From Microbispora amethystogenes (GTDB taxonomy: Bacteria; Actinomycetota; Actinomycetes; Streptosporangiales; Streptosporangiaceae): a stretch of DNA of 64,000 bases. The notes below the pieces were generated by a model that was given only the letters and a program-made list of their open reading frames with translations, ran no database searches and was not told the origin of the DNA. The position numbers and the translations under genes were made by a program. This document shows, piece after piece, positions 27,181-34,254 of the stretch; position 1 is the first letter of the stretch, and every line of letters begins with the position of its first letter. The stretch covers positions 124,001 to 188,000 of the forward strand of contig NZ_BOOB01000003.1 in NCBI RefSeq assembly GCF_016863015.1, read 5' to 3'.

Positions 27181-28806
27181 GTGCGTTCCGCGTCGTCCAT
27201 GCGTCCCGAGGCCGTCCAGGCCCGCCCGCTGTCCGCGCTCGCGTCCCTGCTCGGCCCGTCGTCGTCGGCCGTACCCTCCCCCGGAGCGCGGGTGGTCCGC
27301 GGCGCCGTCACCGGCGTCACCCTCGACTCGCGCCGGGTGCGGCGCGGCGACCTGTACGTGGCGGTGGCCGGGGCCTCCCGGCACGGCGCGGAGTTCGCCG
27401 GCGCCGCCCTCGCGGCGGGCGCGGCGGCGATCCTCACCGACCCCGAGGGCCGTGACGCGGCCGTGGCCACCGGCCTGCCGGTGCTCGTCGTGCCCGACCC
27501 GCGGGCGGTGCTCGGGCAGGTCGCCTCCTGGGTGTACGGCAAGCCCGCGGCCGGCATCACCCTCATCGGCGTGACCGGCACCAGCGGCAAGTCCACCTCC
27601 ACCTTCCTGCTGGAGGCGGGACTACGGGCGGCGGGCCACCGCACCGGCCTCGTCGGCGGTGTGGAGATCCGCGCCGGGGACGTGCGGTTCACCCCCGACC
27701 TGACCACCCCCGAGGCGACCGACCTGCAGGGCCTGTTCGCGCTGATGCGCGAGCAGGGCGTGAGCGCCGCGGCCATGGAGGTCTCCAGCCACGCCCTGGC
27801 CCTCGGCCGGGTGGACGGCCTCTTCTACGACGTGTCGATCTTCACGAACCTGTCGCAGGACCATCTGGACTTCCACCGGGACCTGGACGACTACTTCGCG
27901 GCCAAGGCGCGCCTGTTCACCCCCGAGCTCAGCCGCCTCGGGGTGGTGAACGCCGACGACGCCCACGGCCGCGAGCTGGCCGGCACGGCCAAGATCCCGA
28001 TCACCACGTTCTCCGCCTCGGGAGCGCCGGAGGCCGACTGGCGCGCCGAGGACGTCCGCCTCGGCTCCACCGGCAGCCGGTTCCGGCTCGTCGGCCCCGG
28101 CGGCGTGGAGGCCGACGTGGCGGTGGGCCTGCCCGGGCCGTTCAACGTGGCCAACACGCTCGGCGCGCTGGTCGCGCTGGTGGAGACGGGCGTCCCGCTG
28201 CAGGCCGCGGTGACCGGCGTCGGCGAGTTCACCGGCGTCCCCGGCCGGATGGAGCGGGTGCGGGGCGACGGCGACGTGCCGGGGGACGTGCAGGTGATCG
28301 TCGACTACGCGCACAAGCCGGGCGCGGTGGAGTCGGTGCTCAACTCGCTGCGGGCGGTGCTGGACGACGGTCCGGACAACAGACGTGCCGAGCCCGGCGG
28401 ACGCCTGGTCGTCGTGCTGGGCTGCGGCGGCGACCGCGACCGCGGCAAGCGCCCGATGATGGGCGAGGCCGCCGCCCGCCTCGCCGACGTGGCGATCCTG
28501 ACCAGCGACAATCCTCGTACGGAGGACCCGCTCGCGATCCTCGCCGCGATGCTGGAGGGCGCTCTGCGGGTACCCCAGCAGGAGAGGGCGCACGTCGTCG
28601 TGGAGCCGGACCGGGCGGCCGCCATCCGTCTGGCCGTCGGCGGTGCTTCGCCCGGAGATGTGGTAGTTGTGGCGGGCAAGGGACACGAGCTGGGGCAGTA
28701 TGTCGGGGGCGAGGTCATCCCCTTCGACGACCGTGAGGTGGCCGCCGCGGCCATCGCGGAGCGGAACCGGGCACGGCGGGCCGCAGGGGAGACCGCCGGT
28801 GCGTGA
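27181..28806 (+). CDS. murE: UDP-MurNAc-tripeptide synthetase MurE (meso-DAP adding)
   Basis: A 541-residue Mur ligase that adds the third residue of the stem peptide. ATP loop GVTGTSGKST is at about 131-140; the central ligase motifs (SSHALALGRVDG, FTNLSQDHLDFH) and VDYAHKPGAVESVL are present. The substrate-selecting motif DNPR is at 443-446, which specifies meso-diaminopimelate over lysine. The GTG at 27181 is preceded by TACGCT at six bases, suggesting possible leaderless initiation; the ATG at 27199 is an alternative. The end overlaps a small repeat ORF by 8 bp. Confidence 0.93.
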   Translation: MRSASSMRPEAVQARPLSALASLLGPSSSAVPSPGARVVRGAVTGVTLDSRRVRRGDLYVAVAGASRHGAEFAGAALAAGAAAILTDPEGRDAAVATGLPVLVVPDPRAVLGQVASWVYGKPAAGITLIGVTGTSGKSTSTFLLEAGLRAAGHRTGLVGGVEIRAGDVRFTPDLTTPEATDLQGLFALMREQGVSAAAMEVSSHALALGRVDGLFYDVSIFTNLSQDHLDFHRDLDDYFAAKARLFTPELSRLGVVNADDAHGRELAGTAKIPITTFSASGAPEADWRAEDVRLGSTGSRFRLVGPGGVEADVAVGLPGPFNVANTLGALVALVETGVPLQAAVTGVGEFTGVPGRMERVRGDGDVPGDVQVIVDYAHKPGAVESVLNSLRAVLDDGPDNRRAEPGGRLVVVLGCGGDRDRGKRPMMGEAAARLADVAILTSDNPRTEDPLAILAAMLEGALRVPQQERAHVVVEPDRAAAIRLAVGGASPGDVVVVAGKGHELGQYVGGEVIPFDDREVAAAAIAERNRARRAAGETAGA

Positions 28807-28963
28807 GGCGGTGTTACAGGGCGCCCCAGGCGTCCCGGTCCACAGCGCTCCGATGCACGGTGCTCCGAGCCACGGCGCTCCGGTTCACGGTGCTCCGGTG
28901 TATGGCGCTCCGGTTCATGGGGGCCCGACAAGCGACGCGAAAGAGAGCAGGACAGACACATGA
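28799..28963 (+). CDS. HGAPV pentapeptide-repeat ORF coupled between murE and murF
   Basis: A 54-residue ORF of unknown function filling what would be a murE-murF gap. Residues 14-43 are six tandem pentapeptides of the form (V/M/S)-(H/Y)-(G/S)-A-P, five of them with His and one with Tyr. A polar end DAKESRTDT follows. The DNA repeat is 15 bp, six copies (28838-28927). Evidence that it is translated: a GGGGAG ribosome site about eight bases before its GTG, an 8-bp overlap with the end of murE, and a 4-bp ATGA overlap of its stop with the murF ATG. Its neighbours are coupled in the same style. No signal peptide or membrane helix. It could equally act as a passive coupling leader for murF. Confidence 0.5.
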   Translation: MREAVLQGAPGVPVHSAPMHGAPSHGAPVHGAPVYGAPVHGGPTSDAKESRTDT

Positions 28964-30327
28964 TCCCGTTGCCGCTGGCCCGGGTCGCCGAGATCACGTC
29001 CGGAGCCCTGAACGGCCTGGCCGACCCCGCGGCCGTGGTCCGAGGACCGGTCGTGATCGACTCGCGGGCGGTCGTGCCCGGCTCGCTCTTCGTGGCGATC
29101 AAGGGGGAGCGGGCCGACGGGCACGACTTCGCCCGGCAGGCCCACGAGGCGGGCGCCGTCGCGGTCCTCGCCACCCGGCCGGTCGACGCGCCGGCCGTGA
29201 TCGTGGGGGACCCCCAGGCCGCCCTGGCCGCCCTGGCGCACGCCGTGGTGACGGAGCTTCCCGGCGCGACCGTGGTGGGGGTGACCGGCTCCGCAGGCAA
29301 GACCACCACCAAGGACCTGCTGGCCGGTCTCGCCGCCCGGATGGGCCCAACGGTCGCGCCGGTCGGCTCGTACAACAACGAGATCGGCCACCCGCTGACC
29401 GTGCTCAAGGCCGACGAGGGCACCCGGTTCCTCGTGCTCGAACTGAGCGCGCGCAACATCGGCCACATCGCCTACCTGGCGGAGATCGCCCCGCCGCGCA
29501 TCGGCGTGGTGCTGAACGTCGGCACCGCCCACCTCGGCGTGTTCGGCGGCAAGGAGGCGATCGCCCGGGCCAAGGGCGAGCTCGTCGAGGCGCTGCCCGC
29601 CGACGGGACCGCGGTGCTCAACGCCGACGATCCGCTGGTCAGCGAGATGGCCGGCCGTACGAAGGCCCGGGTGACCTGGTTCGGCCGCTCGGCCCGCGCG
29701 CACGTGCGCGCGGAGGACGAGACGCTCGACGAGGCCGGACGCGCCTCGTTCACGCTGCGCACGCCGTCCGGCGCCGCCCCGGTGCGGCTGCGCCTGTACG
29801 GCGCCCACGCCGTCGAGAACGCCCTGGCCGCCGCGGCCGCCGCCTACGAGCTGGGCATGCCGGTGGCGGCCATCGCCGAGGAGCTGTCGGCGGCCGAGCC
29901 GCGCAGCCGCTGGCGGATGGAGGTCACCGACCGGCCCGACGGGGTGACCGTGATCAACGACGCGTACAACGCCAACCCCGACTCCATGCGGGCCGCCTTC
30001 GGCAGCCTCGGGGTCATCGGCGCGGGGCGGCGGCGGTTCGCCGTGATCGCCGCGCTGCGCGAGCTGGGCGAGGACGGCCCGGCGCTGAACGAGGACCTCG
30101 GGCGGCTGGCCGCCGGCGCGGGGCTGGAAGCGGTGGTCGTCGTGGGGGAGGACGCCGAGCCGGTGCTCAAGGGCGCCCCCGGCGCGATCCACGTGCCCGA
30201 CGCCGCCGCGGCGGCGCGGGAACTGTCGGACCGGCTCGCGCCCGGGGACGCGGTGCTGGTGAAGGGGCCGCGCGCGGCCGGGCTGGAACGGGTCGCCGAG
30301 GCGATCCTCGGAGGTGACGCCCGGTGA
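28960..30327 (+). CDS. murF: UDP-MurNAc-tripeptide:D-Ala-D-Ala ligase MurF
   Basis: A 455-residue Mur ligase that adds D-Ala-D-Ala to complete the UDP-MurNAc-pentapeptide. It shows the ATP loop [15 protein letters not shown] (about 106-120), the Mur central motif [40 protein letters not shown] with the carbamylated Lys region, and [15 protein letters not shown] in the C-terminal domain. The ATG at 28960 has AGGA seven bases upstream and overlaps the small repeat ORF by 4 bp. The stop overlaps mraY (GTGA). Confidence 0.95.
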
Positions 30328-31400: not shown

Positions 31401-32758
31401 GCGTGGTCGTCGCCGGTCTCGGCGTGTCGGGCGCGGCCGCGGCCCGGGCCCTGGCCCGCCGCGGCGAGCGGGTGATCGTGCTTGAGGCGGTGGACGGCGA
31501 GCGGCAGCGCGCCGCCGCCGCCGATCTCGACGCCCTCGGGGTGGAGGTGCGGTTCGGCGAACCCGCCCTGCCCGACGGCGCCTCGCTCGTCGTCACCTCG
31601 CCCGGCTGGCGGCCCGGTCATCCGCTCCTCGTCGCGGCGGAGAAGGCCGGCGCCGAGGTGATCGGGGAGGTCGAGCTGGCCTGGCGGCTGCGCGGGGAGC
31701 ACGCCGCCCCCTGGCTGGCGCTGACCGGGACCAACGGCAAGACCACCGCCGTCCGCATGCTCGCCTCGATCCTGACGGCCGCCGGGCACCGGGCCCTCGC
31801 CGTGGGCAACGTCGGCGTGCCGATCGTGGAGGCCGTCGACGGCCCCTACGACGTGCTGGCCGTCGAGCTGTCGAGCTTCCAGCTCCACTGGTCGTCGAGC
31901 CTCGCGCCGCTCGCGGGGGCCGTGCTCAACGTGGCGCCCGACCACATCGACTGGCACGGCTCGATGGAGGAGTACGCCGCGGCCAAGGCGCGGGTCTTCA
32001 CCGCCGCCGGGACGGTGGTCTTCAACGTCGACGACGCGTGGTCGTCGCGCCTGGCCGAGCCGTACGCCTCCCGGGTGGGCTTCACGCTCGCCGTGCCGCG
32101 GCCCGGTCAGCTCGGGATCGTGGAGGACCTGCTGGTCGACCGGGCCTTCGTGGCCGACCCGGCGCGTACGGCGGAGGAACTGGCCTCCCTGGAGGACGTG
32201 CGCCCCTTCGCGCCGCACAACGTCGCCAACGCGCTCGCCGCCGCGGCCCTGGCCCGTGCCCACGGCGTGCCGCCCGAGGCCGTACGACGGGGCCTGCGGG
32301 AGTTCACGCCCGACCCGCACCGCATCGCGCACGTCGCGACGGTGGGGGAGATCGACTACGTGGACGACTCCAAGGCGACCAACCCGCACGCGGCCGCCGC
32401 GTCGCTGGCCGCCTACCCCTCGATCGTGTGGATCGCGGGTGGTCAGCTCAAGGGCGCCGACGTGAACGACCTCGTACGGCAGGCCGCGCCCCGGCTGCGC
32501 GGCGCGGTGCTGCTGGGGGCCGACCGCGAGCTGATCCGCCAGGCGTTGGCGCGACACGCCGCGAATGTCCCCGTCGTGGACGTGCCGGGGCAAGACACTG
32601 GGGTCATGGACCGTGTCGTCGCCGAAGCCGCCCGGCTCGCCTCTCCGGGTGACACCGTGCTGCTCGCCCCCGCCGGGGCGTCACTGGACATGTACGCCGG
32701 CTACGGAGCGCGTGGGGAGGCCTTCGCCCGAGCCGTGCACCGCCTGGCGGCACGGTGA
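31382..32758 (+). CDS. murD: UDP-MurNAc-L-Ala:D-Glu ligase MurD
   Basis: A 458-residue Mur ligase adding D-glutamate to UDP-MurNAc-L-Ala. It has the N-terminal Rossmann domain starting [20 protein letters not shown] loop [45 protein letters not shown] and [15 protein letters not shown], all typical of MurD. The ATG at 31382 is chosen because other MurD proteins have residues before the Rossmann strand; a GTG at 31397 would give the 4-bp GTGA overlap with mraY seen elsewhere in the cluster. The stop overlaps ftsW by 4 bp. Confidence 0.94.
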
Positions 32759-34254
32759 GCGGCCGGACGGTGAGCGGCCGGACGGTGAGCGGCCGTACGC
32801 CGAGCCAGGCCGCCGACCCGGCCGACGCCCGGGCCGGCGGGGGAGCCGGCGCCCGGGCAAGCCGGGCCCAGGGTGAGCGAGCCGAGAGTGAGCAGGCGCC
32901 GGGCGGCTGGGCCGGCGCCCAGGTCGCGGCGCTGCGCGAGCTGCTCGGCCGCCCGCTGACGTCCTACCACCTCGTGCTGGGCTGCAGCGCGCTGCTGCTC
33001 GCCCTCGGGCTGATGATGGTGCTGTCGGCGTCGAGCATCGAGGCGCTGCAGCGCACCGGGAACCCGTTCTACTGGTTCCTCAAGCAGGTCACGTCGGTGG
33101 CGATCGGGCTGCCCCTCATGTGGGTCTGCTCCCGGCTGCCGCAGCGGTTCTTCCGCCTGACCGGCTACCCGCTGATGGGCCTGGCGATCCTCGGCCTGCT
33201 GATGGTCATCTTCCTCGGCCAGGAACTGCTGGGCGCCCAGCGGTGGATCGTCATCGGCCCGTTCTCCGTGCAGCCGTCGGAGCCGGCCAAGCTGGCCCTG
33301 GTGCTGTGGGGGGCCGACCTGCTCGCGACGCGGGCGCGCGGCGGCCGCATCGAGTGGCGTCAGCTGCTGATCCCCCTGATGCCGGGCGTGGCCCTGCTGG
33401 CCGTCCTGGTCATGATCGGGCGCGACCTCGGCACGACGTTCGTGCTCATGATGATCTTCCTGGCGCTGCTGTGGGTGGTCGGCGCGCCCGTGCGGCTCTT
33501 CGGCGGCATCCTCGGGCTGCTCGCGCTGGCGACCGCCACTATGATCATCGCCGAGCCCTACCGGTTCGACCGCCTCACCGGCTACCTGCATCCGTGGGAA
33601 ACCGCGCAGCACGAGGGGTTCCAAACCGTGCAGGGGCTGATGGCGATGGGGTCGGGCGGCTGGTTCGGCATCGGGCTGGGCGCGAGCCGGCAGAAGTGGA
33701 ACTATCTGCCCCACGCCGAGAGCGACTTCATCTTCTCCATCATCGGAGAGGAGCTCGGGCTGCTGGGCACGCTCGTGGTGGTCGCGCTGTTCGGCCTGCT
33801 CGGCTACGCGGGCCTGCGCATCGCCATGCGGACCAGGGACCCCTTCGTCCGGCTGGCGTCCGCCGCCGCCACCGCCTGGATCGCCGGGCAGGCCGTCGTC
33901 AACATCGGCGCGGTCATCGGGGTCCTCCCGGTCACCGGGATCCCGCTGCCGCTCGTGTCGTACGGCGGATCGGCGCTGCTGCCGACGCTCGCGGCGCTCG
34001 GCATGCTGCTGTCGTTCGCCAAGCGGGAGCCGGGCGCGGCCGAGGCGCTGGCGGCCCGTGGCCCCGGACCGGCCGCGCGGGCTCTAAGCTGGCTTGGCCT
34101 GAACGCCCGAGCCTGGCGCCGGCCCGCGTCCCCGCGCGAGGCCGTCCGGCGGACGGCACGGCCGCGTCCGGCACGAGTGGGAACGACGCGGAAGCAGCCG
34201 CGGGAGCAGTCGCGAGAACGTCCGCGGGAACATCCGCGAGAGAGCAGGGAGTGA
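32755..34254 (+). CDS. ftsW: Septal peptidoglycan polymerase FtsW (SEDS)
   Basis: A 499-residue SEDS glycosyltransferase with about ten membrane helices, partner of FtsI. Core blocks: GAQRWIVIGPFSVQPSEPAKLAL, the catalytic-Asp region GRDLGTTFVLMMIF, QKWNYLPHAESDFIFSIIGEELG, and PVTGIPLPLVSYGGSALLPTLAALGML. The N-terminus starts with three identical-looking VSGRT units from a 15-bp repeat (32755-32799), giving three in-frame GTG codons. The C-terminal tail is R/P/E-rich, ending in RERPREHPRESRE-like repeats. It overlaps murD by 4 bp; murG starts one base after it. Confidence 0.95.
   Translation: MSGRTVSGRTVSGRTPSQAADPADARAGGGAGARASRAQGERAESEQAPGGWAGAQVAALRELLGRPLTSYHLVLGCSALLLALGLMMVLSASSIEALQRTGNPFYWFLKQVTSVAIGLPLMWVCSRLPQRFFRLTGYPLMGLAILGLLMVIFLGQELLGAQRWIVIGPFSVQPSEPAKLALVLWGADLLATRARGGRIEWRQLLIPLMPGVALLAVLVMIGRDLGTTFVLMMIFLALLWVVGAPVRLFGGILGLLALATATMIIAEPYRFDRLTGYLHPWETAQHEGFQTVQGLMAMGSGGWFGIGLGASRQKWNYLPHAESDFIFSIIGEELGLLGTLVVVALFGLLGYAGLRIAMRTRDPFVRLASAAATAWIAGQAVVNIGAVIGVLPVTGIPLPLVSYGGSALLPTLAALGMLLSFAKREPGAAEALAARGPGPAARALSWLGLNARAWRRPASPREAVRRTARPRPARVGTTRKQPREQSRERPREHPRESRE

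Follow-up and report, generated by a model that had tools for sequence, protein, structure and literature searches.

Genes in prokaryotes most commonly overlap by 4 nt, followed by overlaps of 1 and 8 nt, and in six gene pairs of E. coli and Haloferax a distance of about 20 nt between the genes left almost no coupling or reinitiation (PMC10666635). Short upstream ORFs are thought to serve the delivery of ribosomes to the next gene rather than a peptide, as stated in a review (PMC12548453). The same review, in its passage on Supply et al. 1997, describes the MIRUs of mycobacteria as repeat-bearing small ORFs that are inserted with -4 spacing, occur in many mycobacteria and are apparently mobile. 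In Bordetella pertussis, MurE and MurF form one polypeptide (PMC6420597), which makes co-production of the two proteins plausible.

Here we analysed a window of 64,000 nt from Microbispora amethystogenes (contig NZ_BOOB01000003.1, positions 124,001 to 188,000 of the forward strand), in which a small ORF lies between murE and murF. It resembles the coupling ORFs covered in the review (PMC12548453) in being short and in having a stop codon that overlaps the next start by 4 nt. Unlike them, it sits between two genes and overlaps the upstream one (-8), and it would therefore relay ribosomes rather than load new ones. With the MIRUs, as the review describes them, it shares the repeat-bearing small ORF before a gene and, judged by geometry only, the -4 spacing. 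It differs from them in that its repeat is found by BLAST at two places of the genome only, instead of being dispersed at many, and in that the frame is also present in relatives that lack the repeat. A literature search limited to one collection returned no paper on a relay ORF between murE and murF.

Layout of the murE-murF junction

Translation and coordinates bore out the frame described in the initial annotation, with its 54 codons, the 8-nt overlap with murE, the ATGA overlap with murF and six HGAPV-like pentapeptides (Table 1). Without a stop codon, the frame extends back to 140 nt before the end of murE, and the list of ORFs gives a 98-aa ORF from a TTG at position 28667. Since the frame is open further upstream, the GTG start is a choice, which is supported by the relatives described below. 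The Shine-Dalgarno (SD)-like sequence preceding this GTG forms a duplex of -8.5 kcal/mol with an assumed anti-SD tail, a strength that 7.7% of the same-register positions in this murE reach or exceed. The spacer of the window genome contains no stop codons in any of the three forward frames, and the pentapeptide is one of the possible readings of the repeated DNA. At the other end, murF begins with ATG-ATC (Met-Ile) in all 15 Microbispora genomes, so that any frame in that register stops there and the ATGA is not a property of the small ORF.

Folding of the spacer RNA was no better than that of shuffled sequences (z 0.83), and an Rfam search yielded just one sub-threshold match, which lies outside the spacer. 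A plasmid origin was rejected, as positions 28600-29200 had no megablast match in the plasmid set, and a tRNA search of the window found none.

Table 1 Features at the murE-murF junction, in coordinates of the window.
Feature	Coordinates	Strand	Description
Stretch upstream of the small ORF, within the murE 3' end	28781..28798	+	Shine-Dalgarno-like AGGGGAGA at 28785-28792
Small (putative relay) ORF	28799..28963	+	GTG start 8 nt before murE end; 54 codons; TGA inside the ATGA of murF
murE stop codon TGA	28804..28806	+	Pfam identifies murE by its Mur ligase domains
Six 15-bp tandem units (HSAPM HGAPS HGAPV HGAPV YGAPV HGGPT)	28841..28930	+	TRF; the two closest relatives have other unit numbers and sequences
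Purine-rich conserved murF leader with Shine-Dalgarno GCGAAAGAGAGCAGGA	28930..28959	+	Low divergence in the ten genomes with a 63-nt gap
murF	28960..30327	+	Starts ATG-ATC; Mur ligase by Pfam

Start, stop and frame in Microbispora

Each of the 15 Microbispora genomes has an ORF of 22-54 codons whose start lies 8 nt upstream of the end of murE and whose stop falls in the ATGA of murF. The -4 spacing on the murF side lies within the range of about -8 to +10 nt that defines a coupled short ORF, and the -8 spacing puts the start near the murE stop, as the definition of a relay demands. A second MurF-like gene, 52% identical, is present elsewhere in the genome of M. oryzae (G006), and this divergent match (L018) was left out throughout; second MurF-like matches of 51-55% identity also occur in some other genomes of the family.

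Ten genomes have a gap of 63 nt between murE and murF, and the other five have gaps of 57, 75, 108, 141 and 153 nt, always a multiple of three, a regularity to be read in light of the shared ancestry of the 15 genomes, which leaves few independent indels, and of the 15-bp steps, which preserve the frame on their own. The genomes of the ten-genome group carry one additional base beside murF, for which a change elsewhere compensates, such that the total length stays a multiple of three. This base turns the C-terminus of the small ORF from ESRxxx into RKRAGKxP.

The small ORF has its start codon only if the penultimate codon of murE ends in T. This base is T in all 15 genomes, whether the codon stands for Gly (5), Asp (9) or His (1), and T makes up 3.2% of murE third positions. 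Among the last 45 murE codon positions, counted from the stop and unaligned, only the penultimate one has T in all 15. Across the genomes, SD-like duplexes ahead of the -8 start have energies between -5.3 and -14.1 kcal/mol; fewer than 1% of same-register murE positions are as strong in six of them, and up to 32% in others. Start, stop and frame are thus kept through several indels while the sequence changes, and by this comparison start and frame look selected.

The arrangement with a start at -8 recurs in four of six related rows (from Microtetraspora, genus g39 and G053). In M. glauca the gap is 1 nt longer and an in-frame GTGA start lies at -4, and one Microtetraspora lacks the start (GCG).

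The element that is conserved next to murF is, judged from the aligned genomes, its leader, as DNA or RNA. Differences per site in the ten 63-nt spacers amount to 0.072 in the first 31 nt and 0.006 in the last 32 nt, with 0.135 at fourfold sites of murF. A 24-nt core of the leader was found within 3 mismatches in 14 of the 15 genomes; being present as a single copy in each, it was rejected as a genome-wide site. The small ORF reads the leader DNA as ESRxxx in five Microbispora genomes and, in a different frame, as RKRAGKxP in the other ten. The leader DNA before murF, AGAGAGCAGGAAAGACGC, forms the end of murE (ESRKDA followed by the stop) in sister genera (G073, Sphaerimonospora and G097), and the homologous DNA of Microbispora and Microtetraspora ends the small ORF. 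A murE tail split off by a frameshift, the direction that we infer for this change, may be the simplest account of how the putative relay originated.

The repeat array and the encoded peptide

TRF scored the array at 100 with a 30-bp and at 83 with a 15-bp period, which places it among the eight of the window's 86 rows that score at least 100. A repeat is present at this junction in three of the 15 Microbispora genomes, the window genome (G000), G013 and G014, which the MurF tree groups together with a support of 100/99. The units read HGAPV HGAPV HGGPT in G013 and HMAPV HMAPV DSAPG DGAPP in G014.

By BLAST (E <= 0.001), the array occurs at two places in G000, this junction and one other, and outside G000 it was matched among the 15 genomes solely in G013, at the same junction. 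A dispersed repeat family was rejected on the basis of this one further G000 place. A looser pattern allowing 2 mismatches yielded 20 matches in nine of the 15 genomes, nine of these 20 within the two G000 arrays, and its reversed control yielded 11 matches in ten of the 15; because the control matches comparably, single matches outside the arrays carry no meaning.

The other place in G000 (G000:C4, about 195099-195185) is a second 15-bp array with a nearly identical unit, which begins right after the stop codon of a different gene that we take to be alcohol dehydrogenase-like. Its six units repeat the last codons and the stop of this upstream gene; one frame reads repeated SHGAL, and the gene's own frame is stopped in every unit. 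At the corresponding site, G013 has one or two units plus a different short array beside them.

Pentapeptide-sized repeats were also seen elsewhere. In the window, a second 15-bp tandem repeat lies at another junction of the same operon (32752-32799), where the murD end and the ftsW start consist of repeated GTGAGCGGCCGGACG, giving the ftsW frame a repeat N-terminus and several candidate GTG starts. A long RDAPD-like pentapeptide array makes up part of the C-terminal tail of murE, just before murF, in Actinomadura rupiterrae (L157).

The initial annotation had taken third positions that vary while the peptide is kept as a hint of selection on protein. This hint proved weak, as pairwise codon differences among the six G000 units comprise 14 synonymous and 27 non-synonymous changes in the reported frame, no better than the 10 and 18 in the next frame or the 14 and 20 in one antisense frame. 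The corresponding counts are 3 and 14 in G014, and the three units of G013 lean synonymous with 7 and 4. Between the last three units of G000 and the three of G013, 2 synonymous and 1 non-synonymous differences were counted (codons read from the alignment). Outside the array, variants from the consensus in the ten 63-nt genomes (8 distinct ORFs) comprise 1 synonymous and 11 non-synonymous changes, where 29% of the possible single changes in 63-nt ORFs are synonymous. In the pre-array part of G000, G013 and G014, four codons differ and all four change the amino acid (again read from the alignment); the count of murE differences among these three genomes (118-137 of 592) is out of register through an indel and was not used.

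The peptide came near no family cut-off in Pfam, the best match being Extensin_1 (E 0.017, 15.4 bits against 105). The small ORF thus shows neither purifying selection on amino acids nor a recognisable domain, the two marks of a conserved micropeptide. Comparison with relatives, proposed earlier as a check of the frame, found the ORF present and its indels frame-keeping, but no general preference for synonymous change. From the occurrence in three of 15 genomes, the non-synonymous variants, the leader that is reframed in ten of 15 and the array behind another stop codon, the HGAPV repeat is best described as a lineage-specific tandem expansion, a matter of DNA.

Junctions across the family and the role of the small ORF

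A murF match was found in 145 of 150 searched genomes of the family, five of them Microbispora, and 125 junctions were taken from the other 140. Together with the 15 Microbispora genomes this made 140 loci to be examined, of which 135 gave a junction (L207, L212, L221, L231 and L238 were left out of the count). The tables of murE tails and relay ORFs further omit L153, L166, L167, L174 and L179, in which murF is off the standard offset, and L136, L139 and L180, in which the murE tail was not found. The two genes overlap by 4 nt in 61 of the 135 junctions and by 1 nt in three; 11 junctions have a gap of 0-19 nt and 60 a gap of at least 20 nt. These overlaps and the Bordetella fusion resemble the Microbispora junction in that the gene pair is in close translational contact. 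The fusion yields one polypeptide, however, and the overlaps have no spacer, whereas in Microbispora a separate, disposable frame would link the genes.

We counted an ORF as a bridge, or relay, if its start was no more than 20 nt away from the stop of murE and its end coincided with the NTGA of murF. In the class of gaps of 30-153 nt, which was chosen after the gap lengths had been seen and whose smallest gap is 30 nt (L210), a bridge is present in 29 of 38 junctions, compared with 7.5 expected from randomised spacers and random murE tails. With one row per genus, the mean is 9.4 of 12 (at least 8) against 2.5 expected; among 5000 draws of this null, which ignores ancestry between genera, none reached 9 and 0.08% reached 8. 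When the four genera of the -8 clade were omitted, 5.6 of 8 remained against 1.6 expected, and 1.2% of the null draws reached 5. If the spacers are frameshifted murE tails, the open frame was inherited and this null is too easy to beat.

No bridge was found in the other nine of the 38 junctions, nor in any of the 22 junctions with gaps of 222-427 nt. A single bridge is absent from all five rows of Planotetraspora (g23) and from the one row of g66, and it is missing in two of five rows of g32 and one of four of g62. Four of the five Planotetraspora rows (L019, L022, L024 and L025) have a GTG at -8, but the 28-codon ORF starting there ends in a TAA 46 nt before murF; 2 nt further on, a 15-codon ORF starting with TTG leads to the ATGA. 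A two-step relay is possible in Planotetraspora, a weaker case than the single bridges.

We consider it probable that the small frame of Microbispora is a sequence-independent translation relay that carries murE ribosomes to murF. A ribosome finishing murE would restart at the overlapping NTG, translate 22-54 codons of indifferent identity, stop on the ATGA and restart on murF, which would thereby stay coupled to murE though the genes no longer touch. If the distance of about 20 nt that almost abolishes reinitiation also applies to Microbispora, murF would lose its coupling to murE across the 57-153 nt that separate them there, and the small ORF would restore a -8 and a -4 junction. The HGAPV repeat would be a passenger, a 15-bp array that grew in the spacer of three species closely related to each other; as 15 is divisible by three, it was tolerated. 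The earlier suggestion of a coupling device that sets murF translation accordingly draws its support from comparison, namely start, stop and frame in 15 of 15 genomes and the family excess of bridges, from which we infer the effect on murF. Against a relay speak the strongly conserved leader and SD of murF, which may not need one, the SD pairing before the -8 start, which is unremarkable in several genomes, a TTA codon in the frame, odd for one that is well translated, and the junctions without a single bridge, among them those of Planotetraspora and those with long gaps.

Some of the same observations would fit a neutral spacer, the frame of which is open by ancestry and composition, with murF translated from its own conserved SD and the array as tolerated junk. 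The almost invariant murF leader, the peptide that is not kept, the frame open upstream inside murE together with the open forward frames of the G000 spacer, and the lack of relays in the long family gaps all agree with it. We nevertheless regard it as unlikely, because the start-making T is present in all 15 genomes in codons for three amino acids, each of the six gap lengths in Microbispora is divisible by three and bridges are in excess in the family. A functional His/Pro-rich micropeptide, as in the metal-binding role proposed at first, is the least credible reading, to be given hardly any weight: five His and one Tyr do occupy the first place of the six G000 units, and some array differences are synonymous (14 of 41 in G000, 7 of 11 in G013 and two of the three between these genomes), but the repeat is confined to three of 15 genomes, in G014 only 3 of 17 differences are synonymous, the ten 63-nt ORFs encode no His at all, no Pfam family comes near its cut-off and variants outside the array are nearly all non-synonymous.

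The TTA codon allows a further reading. In Streptomyces, the rare leucyl-tRNA (bldA) limits development genes, and a TTA in the small ORF could likewise make the relay, and thus murF, dependent on such a tRNA. One TTA is present in 13 of the 15 relay ORFs, at codon 6 or codon 14 (28814-28816 in the window), compared with none among 12,825 murE and murF codons of the same genomes. We think this very improbable, as two Microbispora genomes lack the TTA and in ten it sits inside leader DNA that hardly varies anywhere along its length; moreover, spacer DNA is not codon-adapted, which makes a TTA less surprising there, and it may be due to chance.

Returning to the relay, its extension to the whole family is tentative and in our view somewhat doubtful: murE and murF genes that had drifted apart would have been re-linked by relay ORFs with selected start, stop and frame and a free peptide, and in Microbispora the TTA may tune the relay. 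Should relay ORFs exist, the "small proteome" would in part consist of frames that are kept for ribosome traffic and not for their product. Such ORFs would be recognisable by overlap geometry and length modulo three rather than by sequence similarity, and they would form a class of conserved ORFs that is invisible to dN/dS and homology searches. The murE-murF junction of these soil actinomycetes would then offer a natural series, from overlap through short relay, repeat-swollen relay and a possible two-step relay to the long gap.
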